Shown piece by piece: positions 1,926-18,452 of a stretch of 41,854 bases of DNA; the first letter of the stretch is position 1; the number at the start of each line of letters is the position of its first letter. A model generated the notes under the pieces. It did not search any database. It saw nothing but the letters and a program-made list of their open reading frames with translations, and had not been told where the DNA came from. A program made the translations under genes and the position numbers. The stretch is from Archaeoglobales archaeon (GTDB lineage: Archaea > Halobacteriota > Archaeoglobi > Archaeoglobales > Archaeoglobaceae), in contig QMZE01000004.1 of the NCBI GenBank assembly GCA_003663025.1, positions 1 through 41,854 of the forward strand, read 5' to 3'.

Positions 1926-3893
1926 CTACTTTAGTAGGGAGAGGAGGAATAAAAATAAAAATATTGCTGCGCCTATTAAGAAGTATGTTGTAAATTGCTG
2001 TCCTAACGATTCTGCTTCGTCGCAGGTTAAGTTCTCTGTTTCTATGCCTAGCCAGGACATTATCATTCTCTGCCAGCCTGGTATTAGCTCTGAGCAGCGC
2101 TCTAAGTGTATTTCTATGTCGTAGCTGTAGCCTTGTGTGAAGGTTCTGTCTGCTTCGTAGGTTTGCCAGTATTCGTTGTAGTAGATTTTGTAGTGGAAGG
2201 TTCTTTTCGTGTTTTGTAGGTCAATTTCGCCGAAGTCTGCTTCGCCGTCTTTGTTTGTTTTGAGTGTTTTGCTGTAGTTTATGTCTTTGCATTCTAAGGT
2301 TACCGAGACGTTTTCTAGAGGAGTTAGGGTGTAGATTAGTGCTCCGCCTTCTCTGCTGTAGACTCGGAATTTTACAGAGGCTTTGCCCGTTGGAGCGCCT
2401 AGTGTTATCGTTACTGTTGTTTTTGATGAGTAATGAGTTATGTTTGCTGTTGCGTCTCCGTAGTCTACGTTACTTGCTTTGATGTCGTAAGTTCCGAAAG
2501 GAACATCTTTGATTGTGCATTTGTTTGTTTCGCCGTCAAATACTGAGCAGCCGTGTCTCCATGCGTCTGATGTTTTTTCTTTGTAGTAGACGTCAAATGC
2601 TTTGATTGGGTTGCCTCCTACATCTTCTACTGTTACTTCTATGTCTCCCTTGCCTTCCTTGTATAGTGTTACTGTTAGCGTGTCTCCTAAACCGAGTTCT
2701 GTTGAATATATTGTTCCTTTGTGTTCTGTGTAGCCTGATTTTGTTACTTTTACTATTACTGGGTCTTTGTCTGTTACGAAGAAGTCTGTTAGTCCTGAAG
2801 AGTCTGTTGTGTCTGATGCTATGAAGTTTTCTTTGTCGTCGTAGAGTTCTACTGTTGCGTTTTCGAGTGGGTAGCCTTGCTCGTCTTGGACTTCTACTTT
2901 GAAGCAGAATTTGTATGAAGTTATTTTGAATGTTTTGTTTGCTGGAAGAAATTGCGGAGATGTGTATTTCTTATAACAGTCTTTCGTTATTTCTACATAG
3001 TAGTATTTGAAGGCGTCTAAGTCTTTGAATTCTACTTGTCCGTAAGAGTCTGTGTATTTTGTTGATACGAGAGTGCCTCCTGATTCGTATAGTTTCACTT
3101 CTGCGTCTTCTATCGGAGTTGTGTCTGATTGAACTGTTATTATTATGGTTACTAAAGATACTTCTTGTAAGGTAAAATTGAAGGTTTCGCAGTCTGAGAT
3201 ATCTGAGTAGTTTTTATATGTTGATTTAGAGACATAACCTGATTTTGATACTACTATTGAGACGCAAGATGGGTCGAAAATGCCTGGAGCGCATTTTTCT
3301 ATCCAGACTTCGCCGTTTGAGTCTGTTGTAAAGGATTCGTAGCCTGGTGAGCTTGTTTTGCAGGTTCCTGCACAGTCAAAGCAGATTTCTACTGTTGCAT
3401 TTTCGATAGGATTGCCGTATTCGTCTACTACTTTTACTTTGAATAGTTTTGCGTGTGATGTGCAGAGCCAGTCGCAGCATTTTGTTTCTACTTTTACTTT
3501 GAAGCCACAATTTGAGTCGTAGCAGAGCCAGTCGTCTTGTTTCCATGATGAACCGTCCCAGTAGAAAGAGATTACGACTATTTCTATGTCTTTGTTAAAC
3601 ATGCAGAGTTCTCTTGCGTAGAATTCGTTTTTGTCTAAGTCTGATTCTGTCATGCAGGCGTCTGGATTTAGTGTTTTGCTTCCTCCTGCTACTTGGTGAA
3701 AGTTTGTTCCGTCGTATGCGTAGACTGCTACTAGGATGTCTCCTTTGTCGCCTCCGTTGCAGCAGAGTAAGTTCTTGAGTTTTATTTTGTCGTCTGGTTT
3801 TAGGGTTACTCTTGAGCTGTTTAAGTAGTATTTCTTGCCATTTACTTCTATATATGTTGCGAATGTGTTTGTGAAGTATGGATTAGGTGCCAT
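1926..3893 (-). CDS. Large Cys-containing surface/fibre-like protein with about five carboxypeptidase-regulatory-like (Ig-like) domains and a C-terminal TM anchor
   Basis: Repeated VKVxDExGNPIENATVEI...TDSxG...KSGY units; C-terminus TYFLIGAAIFLFLFLLSLLK; no N-terminal signal peptide. Confidence 0.8.
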   Translation of the reverse strand: MAPNPYFTNTFATYIEVNGKKYYLNSSRVTLKPDDKIKLKNLLCCNGGDKGDILVAVYAYDGTNFHQVAGGSKTLNPDACMTESDLDKNEFYARELCMFNKDIEIVVISFYWDGSSWKQDDWLCYDSNCGFKVKVETKCCDWLCTSHAKLFKVKVVDEYGNPIENATVEICFDCAGTCKTSSPGYESFTTDSNGEVWIEKCAPGIFDPSCVSIVVSKSGYVSKSTYKNYSDISDCETFNFTLQEVSLVTIIITVQSDTTPIEDAEVKLYESGGTLVSTKYTDSYGQVEFKDLDAFKYYYVEITKDCYKKYTSPQFLPANKTFKITSYKFCFKVEVQDEQGYPLENATVELYDDKENFIASDTTDSSGLTDFFVTDKDPVIVKVTKSGYTEHKGTIYSTELGLGDTLTVTLYKEGKGDIEVTVEDVGGNPIKAFDVYYKEKTSDAWRHGCSVFDGETNKCTIKDVPFGTYDIKASNVDYGDATANITHYSSKTTVTITLGAPTGKASVKFRVYSREGGALIYTLTPLENVSVTLECKDINYSKTLKTNKDGEADFGEIDLQNTKRTFHYKIYYNEYWQTYEADRTFTQGYSYDIEIHLERCSELIPGWQRMIMSWLGIETENLTCDEAESLGQQFTTYFLIGAAIFLFLFLLSLLK

Positions 3894-3894
3894 T

Positions 3895-4149
3895 TTACTT
3901 CAGCCTTTTGTTTATTTCTTCTAGGATTTCTTTTAGTAGTTTCTTGATTTCTTCGTCTTGTAAGGCTTCGTTTATTCCGTTTTTGAAGACTTCTTGTAGC
4001 CAGTTTGCTAGTCTTTGTTTGGTTTCTTCGCTTATTAGAGAATAGACTAAAGATTTTGTGAAAATTTTTGCGAATATGAAGCCCAAGAGCATTAGGATTA
4101 GAGAGCCTATTACGAAGCCCGATATAGAGATTAAGAGAGATTGAAGCAT
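3895..4149 (-). CDS. Membrane protein with amphipathic C-terminal helix
   Basis: Hydrophobic N-terminal half, charged helical C-terminus; overlaps the radical SAM gene stop. Confidence 0.6.
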   Translation of the reverse strand: MLQSLLISISGFVIGSLILMLLGFIFAKIFTKSLVYSLISEETKQRLANWLQEVFKNGINEALQDEEIKKLLKEILEEINKRLK

Positions 4150-5303
4150 TCTTTTACCACCTCAGTTAGTGTTGCGAAGAGTTTACAGTGGATTGATGGA
4201 GGTTTGTATGGGTTGCCCGTTACTTGGAAGTTTGAGGTGTAACATAAGCCGCATAACGCTGATTTGCAGGTTTTGCAGTTCTCTAGAGGATATTTTGGCT
4301 TTGGTAGGTGCTTTCTTTCTATGTTGTAGATTGTTCCGTAATTGAAGTTCATTTCTCTCCACGCTAGGCAGTGGTAGCATGGGTATAAACTCCCATCATA
4401 GTCTATACAAATTGAGTTGCCTGCTCCGCACATGCCTCTTATTTTTCTGTTTGATTTCAATAATCGGTAGATTTTGTTGTATGGAAAAGGCAGGATTTTC
4501 GCTGTTTTTAAGATTTTTCTTGATTGTTCTTTTAGGATTGGCAAGTCTTTTTCTTTTATCGCGTATTCGGATGTCCAGTCGAAGTTGAACGAGATTGCTT
4601 GTGTTAGGTTTGATAGGTAAATATAGTTTTCATATAAGTGATTTAGTTCGTCGCCTGGAACTGTGCAGGCTATGCTGAACGGGATGTTTAAGCCTTTTAC
4701 TGCTAGTATGTTCTTTTCCACAACTGAAGAAGTTGGATGATTTCCTCTTAATCTATATTTGTCTTGCCAAACGCCGTCGTAGCTTATTAGTAAGTGAATG
4801 TTAAATAGCTTCAGAAGTTTTAGTAAACGCAAAGGAAGGTTGTAGCCGTTTGTTGTTATTCCTGTTACTAAGCCTGATTCGATAAATCTTGTCAATTGAG
4901 AGGAGATTGTTGGTTCTGTTTGAGGGATTTCCAAAATTAGATGATTTTGTTTTGCGAAGGCTATGATGTCTTTTGCTGTTTTGTTTAGCATGTCGCCTTT
5001 TCTTTCTTTGTTTCTGTCGTAGCAGTAGAGGCAGTTGAAGTTGCATTCGTTGTTTATTCTTAGTGTTGCTTTGAAATACGGTTTATAAGTTTTGTTAGTA
5101 TTAGTAAGGGGAGATATAAGAGGCGTCGGAATTTTATTGCTATCTTCAGGTGCAAGTCTGAGTAGTATATTTTCACTATCAGCGAAGGTAAAATCTTTCT
5201 GATTCTTCTTAGTGGTTCTAAAGAGTCTACTAAGGGTGTTCCGTAGGAAACTACCATTATTGGACATTCTATTTCTTCTAATATTTGGCATGTTGTTTCG
5301 CAT
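4131..5303 (-). CDS. Radical SAM/SPASM-type enzyme (peptide-maturase-like); true start uncertain
   Basis: CNFNCLYC cluster motif, ITTNGYNLP, C-terminal Cys-rich region CGAGNSICIDYDGSLYPCYHC...CKTCKSALCGLC...HC. GGEP position is atypical (PQTEP). Confidence 0.85.
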   Translation of the reverse strand: MRNNMPNIRRNRMSNNGSFLRNTLSRLFRTTKKNQKDFTFADSENILLRLAPEDSNKIPTPLISPLTNTNKTYKPYFKATLRINNECNFNCLYCYDRNKERKGDMLNKTAKDIIAFAKQNHLILEIPQTEPTISSQLTRFIESGLVTGITTNGYNLPLRLLKLLKLFNIHLLISYDGVWQDKYRLRGNHPTSSVVEKNILAVKGLNIPFSIACTVPGDELNHLYENYIYLSNLTQAISFNFDWTSEYAIKEKDLPILKEQSRKILKTAKILPFPYNKIYRLLKSNRKIRGMCGAGNSICIDYDGSLYPCYHCLAWREMNFNYGTIYNIERKHLPKPKYPLENCKTCKSALCGLCYTSNFQVTGNPYKPPSIHCKLFATLTEVVKECFNLS

Positions 5304-6541
5304 GTTGTTTCACATGTATCGCACACATGTTGAACTTGTGTTAGACAGGCAGAAGTGCATGTTTCTGGCGAACCTTCACATGCTGTTTGGCAAGTTGTTT
5401 CGCAATTTCCACATGTTCCGCAAGCTGGAAAAGTATCTGTTTCGTATGCTATGAAACACGCTAGTGTGTTGAAATCATCTGAAGTGATTTCTCCGTCTTT
5501 ATCTAGGTCTGCTCTGTCTTTAAAGTCTGATTCTGAGAGAGGTGTTGTTATTTGTGCGAATCCGCATCTCAGGTAGTCGCCTAATAGAACTAAATCTGTG
5601 CCGTCTACGTAGCCGTCGTTGTTTAGGTCGCCGTAGTTTTCGCAGGGAGGAGTTCTTCTTGGTGTTAGTTTCCATTTTACTTCTAAGTAGGTTGGTCTGT
5701 CTGTTTCGCACTCGTCGTGGTAGATGCCGTAAGGATTGAATTCTTTTGTTGTTATTTCGTTTGCCTTGACTGTTATTGAACCCATAGGTCTTGGGTATTG
5801 ATAGAAGAGGTTTAGTATGCACGATGAGTCTGAGTCGCCGTCTTCTATTATTTGAAGGGTCATGTCGTTTTCGGTGTTATTTTGAATTGCTATTTTGTGC
5901 TTGAATTGACTTCCTAGCACTTCTGTGCCTTCTCCGAAGAACGCTCTTGTTCTGTAACAAAATGTTCCTGTTTGCGTCCAACCTGCGCAGGAATATACTT
6001 CTGCTACATAGGTCTTGGCTTTTGCTGAAAGTCCTGACGGTAAGTCAAAATTATATCTGAAAGTAAAATCTGTGTTTTCTATTTCTGTTTCGCATGTCGA
6101 TTCACAGTCGCACTGACAGGATTGCTCACAAGTGCCTTCGCATAAAGCCATGCAAAATGTTTGACATGTCGTTTCGCACGTTTCTTGACAGGCTGGTTGA
6201 ACTATTGTTGCTACTATGCTTGCTTTTACTTCTGATTCGACACTTTTTATATCTACCCCTACTGTGAAAAACACTTTTTTCTTTCCTGGCGAGACAGTTT
6301 TTGTTTTACTGTCTGATAGAAAAGACTTTCCGTCTTTGTAGATTGTGTATGATACTTTTATGTCTTTGGTTTCTGATAAGTTGTTTTTTATTTGGACGCA
6401 TAGATATGGTTTTTCTGGATATGTTGCTTCTGTTATTTCGCTCTCATAATCTGTGCAGCAGTATTCTGGAGCAACTGTCCAAATTGACTTATCTTCTAAA
6501 CCTTTGTCTATCGTAGAGTCTATTTTTAATTTGATAGACAT
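5060..6541 (-). CDS. Cys-array structural/surface protein with dockerin-like module and CFI-box-like C-terminus
   Basis: CQETCETTCQTFCMALCEGTCEQSCQCDCESTC and CGTCGNCETTCQTACEGSPETCTSAC...CDTCETTCETTC arrays; YGDLNNDGYVDGTDLVLLGDYL...RADLDKDGEITSDDFNTLACFI dockerin-like repeats; CPIMVVSYGTPLVDSLEPLRRIRKIL tail. Confidence 0.85.
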   Translation of the reverse strand: MSIKLKIDSTIDKGLEDKSIWTVAPEYCCTDYESEITEATYPEKPYLCVQIKNNLSETKDIKVSYTIYKDGKSFLSDSKTKTVSPGKKKVFFTVGVDIKSVESEVKASIVATIVQPACQETCETTCQTFCMALCEGTCEQSCQCDCESTCETEIENTDFTFRYNFDLPSGLSAKAKTYVAEVYSCAGWTQTGTFCYRTRAFFGEGTEVLGSQFKHKIAIQNNTENDMTLQIIEDGDSDSSCILNLFYQYPRPMGSITVKANEITTKEFNPYGIYHDECETDRPTYLEVKWKLTPRRTPPCENYGDLNNDGYVDGTDLVLLGDYLRCGFAQITTPLSESDFKDRADLDKDGEITSDDFNTLACFIAYETDTFPACGTCGNCETTCQTACEGSPETCTSACLTQVQHVCDTCETTCETTCQILEEIECPIMVVSYGTPLVDSLEPLRRIRKILPSLIVKIYYSDLHLKIAIKFRRLLYLPLLILTKLINRISKQH

Positions 6542-7527
6542 TTTATATAGTTTCTATATTGTCTTGCTGTTTTTTCCATAGCAAAATCTGAAGCTCTTTT
6601 TCTGCAATCTTCGGGATTGTAAGATATGTCTAAGTCCATTTCTTCTACGCTGTCGTATAGAGAGCCGTGTTTCTCGTTTACTATGATGTCGCATAAGCCT
6701 CCGTTTCTTAAACCTATTACATAAGTTCCGCAACTTAAGGCTTCTACTATGTATAAGCCGAAAACTTCTATGTATGGTAGAGATGGTAGTGCTATTAGTG
6801 CTTTTGCTTTTTGAAGCAAGTTAATTTTTTCTTCGTGGCTTACTTCGCCTTTGTATATTACGTTGTCGAATTTCTTTGCTGTCTGCTTGATTTTGTTTAT
6901 ATAATTCGGGTCTGGTTGTTCTGCGCCTGCTATTACGAATTTCTTGTTTGGGTATTTTTTCGCTAGTGTGAAAATGTGATGAACTCCTTTTTCTCTTGCT
7001 ATTCTTGATAGGAATAAGTAGTAGTCTTCTTTTTCCTCGCAGAAAGGATATTCATTCAGATAAATGCCGTTTGGTATGATTGCTGAGTCTTCTTCTAGCA
7101 TTTGATAGACTAATAAGCGCTGCCATCTGCTTAAGGTTATGTAGTTTTTGTTTTCTACTGGTGGGTTTGAGTTCCAGGGTAATGCGTGAAATGTGTGAGT
7201 GCATGGTATTTCTTCCTTGAGAGAGTAGATGTATTCCCAGCCTGTCCAGGTATGTCCGATTATTACATCGGGAGAGAATTTTTTGACTATGGGTTCTGCT
7301 ACTTCGTAGGCTCTCTTTTCTTGTTCTATCCAAGAGGTGTTCCAGTCTTGTAGAGGTTCTACTGTTTCTATTTTATTTGGGAAGTATGCGCTTCTTTTTG
7401 TTGTTACTAATAAGACGTCGTCTGTTTTGAGGAGTTCTTTTGCTATGTAACCTGCTATTTTCTCTGCTCCTTGGTAGATTTTAGGGTTATATGGTAAAAT
7501 CCAAGGTGCGAAGACACAAATTCTCAT
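6526..7527 (-). CDS. GT4-type glycosyltransferase (GT-B fold)
   Basis: YQGAEKIAGYIAKEL, DVIIGHTWTGWEYI, FLSRIAREKGVHHIFTLAKKYPNKKFVIAGAEQ, EVFGLYIVEALSCGTYVIGLRNGG. Confidence 0.9.
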   Translation of the reverse strand: MRICVFAPWILPYNPKIYQGAEKIAGYIAKELLKTDDVLLVTTKRSAYFPNKIETVEPLQDWNTSWIEQEKRAYEVAEPIVKKFSPDVIIGHTWTGWEYIYSLKEEIPCTHTFHALPWNSNPPVENKNYITLSRWQRLLVYQMLEEDSAIIPNGIYLNEYPFCEEKEDYYLFLSRIAREKGVHHIFTLAKKYPNKKFVIAGAEQPDPNYINKIKQTAKKFDNVIYKGEVSHEEKINLLQKAKALIALPSLPYIEVFGLYIVEALSCGTYVIGLRNGGLCDIIVNEKHGSLYDSVEEMDLDISYNPEDCRKRASDFAMEKTARQYRNYIKCLSN

Positions 7528-8276: not shown

Positions 8277-8796
8277 ATTGTAACCTGATTATTTTGTATT
8301 TCTCGCCTAAGAGGTTTTTTAGAGTTTCATAGTTGAAGTGTCTGTGGTGGAAGATTGATTTTAAGTTGTAAATTCTACATTTGTTTGATTCTTGCGCTAT
8401 CTGTCTTGGTGTTTTGTTTTCTATTATGCAGAGTTTCCATAGTGGCATGAATGGTCTGTATAAAGAAAGCCAGTTTTCTTCGTCTGGAACTGTTCCTACT
8501 ACTATTCTTGATACTCTTTCTGCTTCTTTTAAAACTTGTTTTGGATTTTCTACGTGTTCTAAAATTTCTGCTAGGATTGCGTAGTCGAATGATTTGTCCT
8601 TAAAGGGTAAATTGTGAGCGTCTGCTACTATGTTGTTGCCCCAATCGTTTATGTCTACTAGAACTAAGTTTGGAGGAAAGCCGTATCTTCGCCAGAGTAG
8701 GCAGTCTCCACTGCCTATGTCTATTATTTTCTTTTTAGTGTCTATTTGGCTGTAGAGCCATTCAAATCTATCAGATGGATAAGAGCGAGTAGCCAT
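8230..8796 (-). CDS. Class I SAM-dependent methyltransferase
   Basis: KKIIDIGSGDCLLWRR, VDINDWGNNIVADAHNLPFKDKSFDYAILAEILEHVENPKQVLKEAERV. Confidence 0.85.
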   Translation of the reverse strand: MATRSYPSDRFEWLYSQIDTKKKIIDIGSGDCLLWRRYGFPPNLVLVDINDWGNNIVADAHNLPFKDKSFDYAILAEILEHVENPKQVLKEAERVSRIVVGTVPDEENWLSLYRPFMPLWKLCIIENKTPRQIAQESNKCRIYNLKSIFHHRHFNYETLKNLLGEKYKIIRLQYEGWSFLCFKSSPLI

Positions 8797-9442
8797 TTTC
8801 GGTTAGTTTCAAGCCTTCTGCGTGGTGAGCTATTACTTCTGTATCTACAAAAATTTTCATTTTTAGTTCTCTTCTGACTCTTTCACAGAAAAAGAAGTCT
8901 TCTGAGAGTTCTTTATAGTATGATGGTATTTTTAGGCAGGAATCTTTTGTCCAGAGGAAGTATGGTAATTCGGGGTTTGATTTCTTTAGTAGAGTGAAGA
9001 CGTCTTTGTGAATTAAGCATAAGCCCATGCCTATGTAATATGCTTCAAACAAGCCTTTCGTGAAGGAGGAAACTTGTTGAATTTCGTTATTCTTGCGAAT
9101 CCATGCTGACCATAGGAAGCCTTTTTTCTTTGCTCTGTATAAGCCGCTTACTATTGGTAATCTGTGGCGTAAAAGTTTTAGTGCGAAATCTCTTGGTGGA
9201 ATGACATCTGAGTCTAGGAAAATTATCCATTCGGCATGCTTTGAACCTTCGTCTGCTAATATGTTTCTGCAGGCGTCTAATGGTCTGCCTCTGTTGAATA
9301 AAATTATAGATTCTGGAGGTAAGATTAACTCTCTCAATCTTAAAGCAAATTCTGTTGATACTTGCCCTACGTGGCAAATACAAAGGGCGCAGGAGTTCTG
9401 TTTAGCTAACTCCTGCGCCCTTATGTATTCCCACGCTGTCAT
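8771..9442 (-). CDS. GT-A-fold glycosyltransferase-like protein
   Basis: FNRGRPLDACRNILADEGSKHAEWIIFLDSDVIPP (DxD), LPIVSGLYRAKK. Confidence 0.75.
   Translation of the reverse strand: MTAWEYIRAQELAKQNSCALCICHVGQVSTEFALRLRELILPPESIILFNRGRPLDACRNILADEGSKHAEWIIFLDSDVIPPRDFALKLLRHRLPIVSGLYRAKKKGFLWSAWIRKNNEIQQVSSFTKGLFEAYYIGMGLCLIHKDVFTLLKKSNPELPYFLWTKDSCLKIPSYYKELSEDFFFCERVRRELKMKIFVDTEVIAHHAEGLKLTENGYSLLSI
9383..9422 (-). other. Perfect 15-bp inverted repeat (10-nt loop) near the 5' end of the GT-A gene
   Basis: AAGGGCGCAGGAGTT-ctgtttagct-AACTCCTGCGCCCTT, arms 9383-9397 and 9408-9422. Confidence 0.85.
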
Positions 9443-9968
9443 GCTACCACTATGTATCTGACTGCGTCGCCGTCTACTTCGGAGACTAAGCCTATCTTGT
9501 TAAGGTTGTCTATGTTTATAGCGACTGACTCGCCTGCTGCGAGTGGGTAGCCTTGTCTGAAGAGACGTTTGTGTCGCCTATATAGACTGTGCCTGAGTTT
9601 GTTGGTTCTGCTTTGACCAAAACTGTTCGGATTTCTGCACTACCTAAGACAACTGGTGAAGCGCCGCTTAAATTAGTTCCTGAGATTATAACTCTACCGT
9701 GGTTAAGCGATGTAGGAACTGCTGTTTTGACTGTCTGACCGCTGATTTTCGCAACTACTGTTTCTCCGCTGACTTTTGCTAAGACTGTTTCTCCACTGAT
9801 TTTGCCGATTACAGTTTCACCGCTAATCTTGCCGATTACAGTTTCTCCGCTGATTCTGGTGATTACTGTCTCGCCGCTGACTTTTGCGATTACTGTCTCG
9901 CCGCTGATTTTTGCGATTTCAAGCGAACCTGATGTTAATGGAGCTCCTGCTCCAAATATATCTACCAT
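9439..9968 (-). CDS. Fibre-like protein with 9-aa tandem repeats; C-terminus is encoded after an apparent -1 frameshift (the listed ORF 9516..9968 is the truncated reading)
   Basis: After about 9555 the -1 frame reads QGYPLAAGESVAINIDNLNKIGLVSEVDGDAVRYIVVA*, matching the C-terminus of the 10166..10579 product (KGYPLRPGETVALKTDNLNKIHASGAVGDKIRYIAIIG) and ending in an ATGA overlap with the next gene. Confidence 0.75.
9723..9911 (-). repeat. Seven in-frame 27-bp (9-aa) tandem repeats
   Basis: KISGETVIA KVSGETVIT RISGETVIG KISGETVIG KISGETVLA KVSGETVVA KISGQTVKT. Confidence 0.9.
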
Positions 9969-11080: not shown

Positions 11081-12094
11081 CTAAGGAGTTTCTTCTGAGC
11101 CCATTGAAACGGAAGGCTCTGGAGAAACATACTTACGAACTAGAATCCAATCGTAATAGCAACCGTATGAACCTCCTATGATAAAATTAACAGTAGAAGA
11201 GTAGGTAGTATCTGTTACGCTATCTTTAAACTCTCCGTCTTCGTAATAACTTATCGTGCCGTCAGCAGCTCTTCTTACCTCAATCACATGCCAGTTTGTG
11301 TCAGCTGGAAGACCCGTGATGTTCAAGAGTCCTGTTACACTTCCATCATCAGAGCGGTCTATCCAAACTACTCCTCCTCCGTATCTCTTCACAAAATATC
11401 CATCATTCCCAGACTCAGTAGAATAAGTCCCAGTAGCAAGAATATCAACCCATATATCGTAACTATTATCCACAGTAGTTACTCGTGCTTTATACTTTGC
11501 AGCGATTTCTGCCTCTGAATTTGGCTTGTAGCATCTGCCTGGGTTATCTGATGTATATAGCGTTCCACCGCTCTCAGTGAAGGAGCCTAGCGAAACCGTC
11601 CAATCGAGAACACCATCTTCAAAATCATCAAATATAAGAAAAGTCGCATTACCATCGCTCGCGCTCGTAATCTGTGAATTTCCGTAATACATGTAGATAT
11701 CAACGCTTGAATTCGCAGGTATGGAAGGCACTTCTACCCATATCTTCGCGCTTTCATTAACAGAATCCCATTCCTCAATCCAATAATCTAGAAGATTTCC
11801 ATCGGCGTCGGTGAATCTTATGTCTTCGCCATTTGTTTGAGCATGCGCGAAATTAAAGTTTGAGCTGTTGAGTTCTATGAGGACTTGATAGTATGTTAAG
11901 TCTGTGCCTGATTGCTCTGCGATTGTGATTTTTCTTCTGTATTGGAAGCTCATAGAGTCTACGATAAAACCGAAAGGATAAAATAATTTCTCAAGCAGCA
12001 GTTCGCGTGAGAAACCGATATATATGTTTGGTTTCTCGAATGCTCTTTCTATTTTGAGTTTCTCTCTTAGAATACAAGAGGATAGAGCCTTCAT
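11081..12094 (-). CDS. DUF2341 / LamG-like (concanavalin-type) fibre or adhesin protein
   Basis: YRRKITIAEQSGTDLTYYQVLIELNSSNFNFAHAQTNGEDIRFTDADG...YWIEEWDSVNESAKIWVEVPSIPANSSVDIYMYYGN followed by a jelly-roll-like region. Confidence 0.75.
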   Translation of the reverse strand: MKALSSCILREKLKIERAFEKPNIYIGFSRELLLEKLFYPFGFIVDSMSFQYRRKITIAEQSGTDLTYYQVLIELNSSNFNFAHAQTNGEDIRFTDADGNLLDYWIEEWDSVNESAKIWVEVPSIPANSSVDIYMYYGNSQITSASDGNATFLIFDDFEDGVLDWTVSLGSFTESGGTLYTSDNPGRCYKPNSEAEIAAKYKARVTTVDNSYDIWVDILATGTYSTESGNDGYFVKRYGGGVVWIDRSDDGSVTGLLNITGLPADTNWHVIEVRRAADGTISYYEDGEFKDSVTDTTYSSTVNFIIGGSYGCYYDWILVRKYVSPEPSVSMGSEETP

Positions 12095-16912: not shown

Positions 16913-17485
16913 CTAAAACGAGAACTTTAATTTAATAGAAAGACTGTAGTCTACAGGAAAATCTATAGGAGATACAACGTCACGAAGAATCAAAACTGGA
17001 TAAGTAGTGTCGTCAGCTTTCGCTCTAGCGACTAAGCCGAATTCTTTTACGATAGTATCAACATTATCGTTTAAGAATAACCTCGAGATATCTAAGGAGA
17101 GAGAACCTGCTTCCTCGTAAACGTCTGATATATTCACAGCAGAACACCAGCAAGAGAATTGACTGCCTAATTTATAGTCGTCCGGTGTCGGCGATACATC
17201 AGAAGTTCCTATTAATATGCCGTAAGATTCATCTTCTTCTGGAGCATCGAGGAAGAAACTACCGTTATATACGCAATAACCAGCATTACACCATTTCGAA
17301 CAATAATATGAAACTCTATGAGTAAAAGTAGAGCCGTCTATTCTCTTTAAAGTAACAGAGTCATCTGTAAGTTGAGAGTAATAAGCCAGGTAATAATTTT
17401 TTAAGAGAGAATTAACTTTACCTCTGATGCATCTTTCTAGTTTCTCATTAGGGTTAAAAAGGCAGATTTCGTATGTTATCTTCAT
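16913..17485 (-). CDS. Fibre/tail-type structural protein, GTSD family (paralogue 2) with Cys-containing inserts
   Basis: YGILIGTSDVSPTPDDYKLGSQFSCWC...VKEFGLVARAKADDTTYPVLILRDVVSPIDFPVDYSLSIKLKFSF; insert YYCSKWCNAGYC. Confidence 0.7.
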   Translation of the reverse strand: MKITYEICLFNPNEKLERCIRGKVNSLLKNYYLAYYSQLTDDSVTLKRIDGSTFTHRVSYYCSKWCNAGYCVYNGSFFLDAPEEDESYGILIGTSDVSPTPDDYKLGSQFSCWCSAVNISDVYEEAGSLSLDISRLFLNDNVDTIVKEFGLVARAKADDTTYPVLILRDVVSPIDFPVDYSLSIKLKFSF

Positions 17486-18452
17486 TCGAGAATACCTCCC
17501 TGAATTGGCAGTTTATGTGAAGAATATCTGCTAAAAAGTCATAAATTTTGTAGAAAGCGTAGCAGTATCTGTCTTTGTGATAGAAGTAGGCTGCACAACC
17601 TCCATAACAATAATTCCAATATTTGCAGTTTCTACAATCTCTCTTTTCTAGAATATAATATCTTTTATAAGTAGGTTTGAATGTGTATAATGTTTCTATA
17701 GGAAGAACTGAGCAGTTTGCTACTTTTCCATTCGGAAGAATTCTCTTGGCGTTTTGAGTGCAATAAGGGTCGCATAAAGTATTGAAGCATTCTGCTTCAT
17801 GACCTAATAGGTTGCTTATGAAGAGATTAATAGGGTCTATGTTTATATTAATAGGAAGCAGTTGCAGTTTTGCTAATTTCTTCCATAATAAATATAGAAT
17901 TGTAGGACTAATGGAATATGATGTCAGTGTTTCGTGGTTTATTTTGAAATGCTTGACTATCTTGCTCATGCTGATAATGAAGTCAAATATATAGTTGTAA
18001 TTTAACTTGTGAGCAACAATCATTATAGTGATAGGAATGTTCTCGCTCGCAAGACTTGATATATTTTCTAAAGTTTTTTCTGTTTCTTCTTTTGTGCATC
18101 TTAGTATGTTTTGTTTTGGAAAGCCGTCTATTGAGACTGCTACTGATGTTTTGTATTTTTTGAATAGTTTTATGTGGTCTTCATTTATTAATAAGCCGTT
18201 TGTGCAGATTGACGATTTTCCGCTTAGTTCGTATGATAAGCGTAAAAAATATTCTATATCTTGTAAAGGTAGGAGAAGAGGCTCGCCGCCATGTAAGACT
18301 ATTTCGTCTTTATATCTGTTGTATAAGAATTTGACTGTGTTTGCTATTGCTTCTTTGTTGTAGTTTAATGTTCCTTCTCCATGTAATATTTTTTGGTAGC
18401 AGTATTTACAGTTTCTGTCGCATTTTAGAGCGCCCTCTAGTATCAGTATCAT
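17454..18452 (-). CDS. Radical SAM/SPASM enzyme (peptide-maturase-like)
   Basis: CDRNCKYC, LHGGEPLLLP, CTNGLLIN, SPASM-like CDPYC...GKVANC...CRNCKYWNYCYGGC...C. Confidence 0.92.
   Translation of the reverse strand: MILILEGALKCDRNCKYCYQKILHGEGTLNYNKEAIANTVKFLYNRYKDEIVLHGGEPLLLPLQDIEYFLRLSYELSGKSSICTNGLLINEDHIKLFKKYKTSVAVSIDGFPKQNILRCTKEETEKTLENISSLASENIPITIMIVAHKLNYNYIFDFIISMSKIVKHFKINHETLTSYSISPTILYLLWKKLAKLQLLPININIDPINLFISNLLGHEAECFNTLCDPYCTQNAKRILPNGKVANCSVLPIETLYTFKPTYKRYYILEKRDCRNCKYWNYCYGGCAAYFYHKDRYCYAFYKIYDFLADILHINCQFREVFSNEDNIRNLPF

Follow-up and report, generated by a model that had tools for sequence, protein, structure and literature searches.

We found that a likely archaeal viral contig encodes a cysteine-array protein (P0002) next to a radical SAM (rSAM)/SPASM enzyme (P0001), and that this pairing reaches well beyond the window, by which we mean the whole 41,854-nt stretch analysed here, the entire contig from a 1.87 Mb bin that is 72% complete. 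What the analysis shows is the gene pair with its arrays, the family to which the enzyme belongs, and the linkage of such enzymes to arrays and tail modules across lineages. We favour, with somewhat better than even confidence, the reading that the virus encodes an rSAM/SPASM enzyme akin to CteB, PapB and QhpD, and that this enzyme acts on the C-[EQ]-[TS]-x arrays in the structural or surface protein encoded beside it, a chemistry and a location that we read from genomic comparison. The window features concerned are these:

1926..3893, minus strand: 655-aa Cys-containing protein with CarboxypepD_reg domains (Pfam PF13620, 87.1 bits) and a C-terminal hydrophobic anchor
3895..4149, minus strand: 84-aa protein, hydrophobic and transmembrane-like near its N-terminus; its gene overlaps the stop codon of the rSAM gene
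4131-5303, minus strand: P0001, rSAM ORF of 390 aa, by Pfam Radical_SAM and SPASM-type cysteines
4131..5078, minus strand: rSAM/SPASM core, P0001 residues 76-390, by homology, codon usage and fold model
5060..6541, minus strand: P0002, candidate substrate of 493 aa, with support for its reading frame as far as the stop at 5060
5288..5416, minus strand: Cys array 2, P0002 residues about 376-418, CGNCETTCQTACEGSPETCTSACLTQVQHVCDTCETTCETTC, by CxxxC spacing
5462..5635, minus strand: dockerin type I, P0002 residues 303-360 (Pfam PF00404, 41.1 bits, cut-off 22.9, E 2e-10)
6092..6190, minus strand: Cys array 1, P0002 residues 118-150, CQETCETTCQTFCMALCEGTCEQSCQCDCESTC, by CxxxC spacing and a sub-cut-off TIGR04117 match
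6526..7527, minus strand: group 1 glycosyltransferase (Pfam PF00534, 85.5 bits), its stop codon overlapping the P0002 start
8771..9442, minus strand: glycosyltransferase-like protein (phrog_34859 glycosyltransferase, E 9.5e-7)

A preliminary description, made from the sequence alone, had reported an rSAM ORF with the motif CNFNCLYC and SPASM-like cysteines, and both are present. P0001 matches Pfam Radical_SAM (PF04055) at 30.1 bits against a cut-off of 29.5, and its complete SPASM-type cysteine set (CGAG...YPCYHC...CKTC...CGLC...C) aligns with the cysteines of other array-linked enzymes; the SPASM model TIGR04085 gives 24.8 bits for P0001, under the cut-off of 27, and 34.4, above it, for the close homologue L050. 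A structural model of P0001 (pLDDT 84, pTM 0.86) matches rSAM structures. The SAM-amine motif GGE is common in the radical SAM superfamily and is no absolute requirement. P0001 keeps its E and the following P and has lost the Gly-Gly, reading EIPQTEP, and L050 and L060 read EIPQQEP, whereas most other array-linked rSAMs have GGEP. As judged from these sequences, EIPQxEP is a feature of the clade formed by P0001 and its two closest relatives, and because of it the activity of P0001 could differ.

The rSAM ORF was also said to overlap the 3' end of the P0002 gene. The ORFs do overlap, by 244 nt, but the overlap is coded in the P0002 frame, and is at least partly an effect of ORF calling. Across 5060-5303 the codon-usage log-likelihood is +26.8 in the P0002 frame and -21.3 in the P0001 frame, with usage switching from the former to the latter at about 5100. 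Since, in addition, the viral homologues start at P0001 residue about 76-80, the first 75 or so residues of P0001 are probably non-native sequence. The rSAM core seems to begin near 5066, without an obvious start codon, and there is no in-frame ATG, GTG or TTG between P0001 residues 14 and 100. Candidate routes to a start are an overlap start at 5267, a non-AUG start, a -1 frameshift or an assembly indel; the frame relation is compatible with a programmed -1 frameshift from P0002 into the rSAM, and we saw no canonical slippery heptamer by eye.

P0002 is laid out as an N-terminal beta-rich domain, Cys array 1, a second beta-rich region, the dockerin (missed in the preliminary description), Cys array 2 and a C-terminal extension. 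The two dense arrays reported earlier stand out clearly from chance: among its 493 residues are 32 Cys, forming 12 CxxxC spacings (mean 1.6, maximum 7 in 2000 shuffles) and a longest CxxxC run of 25 residues (13 in the same number of shuffles). The NCBIfam Cxxx-repeat target model TIGR04117 matches residues 94-150 at 22.6 bits (E 8.5e-5), below its cut-off of 50. An AlphaFold model of P0002 alone (pLDDT 42.8) was too poor for use. A reading of the C-terminal residues 430-493 as CFI-box-like found no support in NCBIfam (E 10), other array proteins or plasmids, and was dropped. Relatives of P0002 were absent from cultured phages and from 55 host-family genomes; cultured phages likewise yielded none for P0001, and 298 genomes of the phylum yielded only ordinary rSAMs at about 30% identity.

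The preliminary description treated enzyme and array protein as a functional pair, and they do co-occur in relatives. We queried viral contigs with P0001 and one homologue, and this enzyme-first search returned only two viral relatives, L059 and L060 (37-38% identity). In both, the gene for a 160-aa protein with a C[EQ]xx array at its C-terminal end overlaps the rSAM stop, and the gene order is opposite to that of the window. L050/L059 had already come up by way of its array, and L060 was found by the enzyme alone. On a reading of the sequence, rather than by an HMM match, the L050 pair lies among genes resembling tape-measure, tail and small head-tail-type genes.

An array-first search used DNA patterns encoding the array, and we kept non-redundant loci with a strict in-frame array. 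There were 36 such loci, 24 with an rSAM; in most of the others the sequence ends near the array. Where at least 1.5 kb of downstream DNA was available, an rSAM was found in 20 of 21 loci, on the same strand in all, as against 3 of 155 control loci that match the pattern and have no in-frame array (Fisher p 3e-22). Some of the tested loci had supplied seeds for the rSAM profile; NCBIfam identified most of the seeds as rSAMs independently. The array definition was also made stricter following an initial inspection, before which the figures were 47 loci, 28 with an rSAM, and p 1.4e-18. Excluding that of the window, the array-linked rSAMs form 16 clusters at 60% identity, a few of them from bacterial genome contigs. 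The window pair has the same arrangement, with its C[EQ]xx array gene and its rSAM gene side by side on one strand. The array consensus is C-[EQ]-[T/S/V]-[G/S/A/T], with E or Q at 88%, a figure biased by the search pattern, and Cys is the sole invariant residue. A pattern scan of genome contigs gave mostly out-of-frame or low-complexity repeats. Similarity also brought up seven rSAMs of human-gut phages (L284, L286-L288, L290-L292), none of them with an array next to it in the available flanking DNA; hence, not all related phage rSAMs belong to the array system. A planctomycete MAG contig (L082, 3-3719) encodes an incomplete 1239-aa C[EQ]xx-array protein, with no rSAM in the available part.

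These linkage data bear on the idea that the array cysteines form ladders of disulfides or metal ligands, and that the rSAM targets a small RiPP, the 655-aa Cys-containing protein or something else. Disulfides are frequent in Cys-rich extracellular proteins, and the 655-aa neighbour, possibly a membrane-anchored surface partner as judged from its sequence, reaches the cut-off of the rSAM-associated putative lipoprotein model TIGR04134 (41.1 bits, cut-off 39.8). However, the linkage tracks the array itself over the 16 rSAM clusters, in carrier proteins that vary greatly in size, and in L060 no other ORF beside the rSAM is as rich in Cys as the array protein. We therefore regard such ladders as very unlikely.

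Sequence comparison places the array-linked enzymes with thioether formers (CteB/SCIFF, PapB, QhpD) and away from sulfatase maturases, in keeping with the thioether chemistry first suggested. A profile of 16 array-linked rSAMs (A2) searched against the PDB matches CteB (5wgg) at 274 bits (E 1.7e-80), the next match being the sulfatase maturase anSME at 153 bits. The best NCBIfam matches of these enzymes are PapB, QhpD, SCIFF and nif11; the sulfatase maturase model TIGR03942 is absent from the 25 best NCBIfam matches of P0001, and scores 42.3 with L050, against 100.8 for PapB. Foldseek with the P0001 model does not separate the two families (CteB TM 0.77-0.79, anSME TM 0.75-0.77). P0001 itself falls far under the equivalog cut-offs, with 64.7 bits for PapB (NF047865, cut-off 340) and 30.5 bits (E 2.6e-7) for the CXXX-repeat maturase TIGR04115 (cut-off 350).

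The viral pair shares with the CteB/SCIFF maturase (TIGR03974; PDB 5wgg, 5why) an rSAM plus SPASM fold and a neighbouring gene for a Cys-rich substrate. However, the substrate of CteB is a short cellular peptide, whereas here large viral proteins carry internal arrays; moreover, we identified neither a leader peptide nor an RRE domain, and P0001 scores below the SCIFF equivalog cut-off. PapB is the best NCBIfam match of P0001 and of the rSAMs of L050, L020, L032 and L034. Its substrate PapA also has a short-period repeated Cys motif, and PapB, which accepts Cys-Glu, couples Cys to Asp or Glu at a spacing of 0-6 residues (PMC9413430); PapA differs in its CX3D repeats, with Asp after three intervening residues, whereas the viral arrays have E/Q right after Cys. 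QhpD (TIGR03906), the top NCBIfam match for the L030 and L031 enzymes, forms three Cys-to-Asp/Glu bonds within the enzyme subunit QhpC (PMC7876137), and is thus a case of several thioethers in a structural subunit of a larger protein, but one of cellular enzyme maturation, with a single substrate, three links and no repeat arrays. The TIGR04115/TIGR04117 families pair an rSAM with a Cys-Xaa-Xaa-Xaa repeat target, which P0001 and P0002 array 1, respectively, match below cut-off; the viral carriers differ in being large and multidomain. We found no paper on these CXXX families in a literature search that covered few subscription journals and preprints.

Because PapB and QhpD both join Cys to Asp or Glu, Glu or Gln is the leading candidate acceptor in the arrays, with Thr as the alternative, and by analogy the modification probably consists of Cys-to-Glu/Gln/Thr thioethers. 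The rSAM might instead act on the arrays with another chemistry, such as epimerisation, methylation, hydroxylation or Thr/Glu C-C links, leaving Cys free for metal or disulfides. SPASM enzymes do carry out several reactions, the window clade has EIPQxEP in place of GGE, and P0001 scores under every equivalog cut-off; yet Cys alone is invariant in the arrays, and the nearest families all form Cys thioethers, which makes a different chemistry decidedly unlikely in our judgement.

In several phages the arrays are syntenic with tail modules (L021, L028, L030, L039 and L211). The gene order in L030 is gp25, baseplate J, array, glycosyltransferase, array, rSAM, GT9 and GT2-like; that in L021 is tape measure, array, rSAM and GT9-like; that in L211 is tape-measure-like protein, array, array and rSAM; and in L028 the array comes directly after baseplate J. 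The baseplate J-like protein of L028 (5458-8508) contains an intein insertion (Pfam PF14890, 63.5 bits). In L021/L035, L030/L037, L031, L039 and L049 the rSAM is followed by a GT9-like gene, which BLAST detects nowhere else in the locus set. This position in five lineages suggests combined cross-linking and glycosylation; given these genes, and the glycosyltransferase genes near P0002, the arrays may be glycosylated as well.

The host bin encodes a dissimilatory sulfite reductase whose closest structure is PDB 3mm5 (475 bits, against 315 for the next), the Archaeoglobus fulgidus enzyme; this points to an Archaeoglobaceae bin, and hence to a heat-loving host. The contig encodes a family B polymerase distantly resembling the enzymes of haloviruses, a DNA methyltransferase, a dCTP deaminase and a Sak4-like protein, and has tail-type PHROG matches, with the P0002/rSAM pair inside a run of such genes. 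The scan of window proteins brought up no recognisable HK97 capsid, portal or terminase, so the contig is likely, rather than proven, to belong to a virus; it has no terminal repeats and may thus be incomplete. A 463-aa candidate structural protein had no relatives in searches that included the 55 host-family genomes, and the best short matches between CRISPR spacers and the window fall outside repeat arrays. The only clear DNA sharing with the host family that we found is a segment (11619-11930) of a DUF2341-containing gene (11081-12094), with 66-72% identity to other contigs of the host bin and family. In the same gene run as the pair, 9516-9968 encodes a fibre-like protein with tandem 'SGETVIxKI' repeats. 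A second rSAM gene with SPASM-like cysteines, distinct from P0001, lies at 17454-18452 on the minus strand; it adjoins a gene for a 190-aa protein with a small Cys cluster (16913-17485), and its best cultured relatives are rSAMs of the Thermus phages Cumys and phiMa (25-26% identity), located near baseplate/tail-collar genes.

The statement that no viral case had been described holds in part. No paper on a phage rSAM modifying structural proteins was found in the same literature search, but a cassette of two rSAMs with two or three short array ORFs is present in each of the cultured phages SPN3US, CR5, EarlPhillipIV, Machina and ChrisDB. The arrays in these ORFs are C[ST]G[ST] or similar, CxxxC spaced, and lie beside an annotated virion structural gene; none of the papers found interprets the cassette as modifying proteins. 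These ORFs include:

L293, 2088-2486 and 2500-2901: SPN3US-like array ORFs
L289, 4094-4483: SPN3US-like array ORF
L294, L295 and L296: further SPN3US-like array ORFs

SPN3US has one array ORF that lacks an annotation, and one of those in ChrisDB is covered by an annotated gene on the opposite strand. The enzymes (SPN3US gp102/gp103, ChrisDB gp183/gp184) resemble the window enzyme as phage SPASM-type rSAMs beside CxxxC array ORFs, but form a distant clade (HMM scores of 100-116 bits, where the window enzyme reaches 313) and differ in having two rSAMs, C[ST]G[ST] arrays and short precursors of 130-150 aa. Many phage genomes have annotated rSAM genes, which have been assigned to host metabolism or repair, as with the six of one Pseudomonas jumbo phage (PMC8541153), or elsewhere treated as hypervariable cassettes.

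The short, RiPP-like SPN3US-type precursors would also fit a mobile-element surface-decoration system, in which the thioether-modified array protein goes to the host surface or outside and not into virions. So would the dockerin, the glycosyltransferases and the membrane-anchored neighbour, and the window has no recognised virion hallmark gene. On the other hand, large array proteins directly follow baseplate J or tape-measure genes in other phages, and the window pair lies within a run of tail-type PHROG matches; we consider such a destination unlikely, and take P0002 to be a candidate virion protein. The earlier proposal of enzymatic modification of virion or surface arrays withstood its main refuting conditions, since the pair recurs in relatives and the enzymes group away from sulfatase maturases. 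It gains from the linkage, the thioether-forming family and the tail and baseplate context elsewhere, but not from the window itself as regards capsid, portal and terminase.

For the favoured reading, modification of the arrays by the neighbouring rSAM, we infer the chemistry, the residues joined, the place in the virion and the advantage as follows. The P0002 and rSAM genes are on the same strand and overlap, and would be translated from one message. The enzyme would bind the array substrate in the anaerobic cytoplasm, and the 5'-deoxyadenosyl radical would abstract H from a side-chain carbon of Glu, Gln or Thr. The Cys sulfur would then be coupled to that carbon with the assistance of an auxiliary Fe-S cluster, with 2 Da lost per link if the enzyme behaves as its family does. 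The product would be many short thioether rings in each array, giving a stiff, reduction-proof, cross-linked rod or linker that joins the beta-domains and the dockerin in a protein of tail or surface type; this protein may carry glycans too.

More tentatively, and with slightly less than even confidence, we suggest that bacterial and archaeal viruses widely encode an array protein with a CteB-like rSAM, often together with a glycosyltransferase, to cross-link and glycosylate Cys ladders of their own tail, baseplate or surface proteins. To our knowledge, the substrates of rSAM thioether maturases have so far been cellular peptides and one enzyme subunit. The thioether idea is testable now, since SPN3US, a cultured model phage, and the phages related to it have a cassette of a related kind. 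If true, it would give a possible function to phage rSAM genes now listed as host-metabolism or repair genes, and would represent a new covalent cross-linking chemistry for virus structure across many unrelated lineages.
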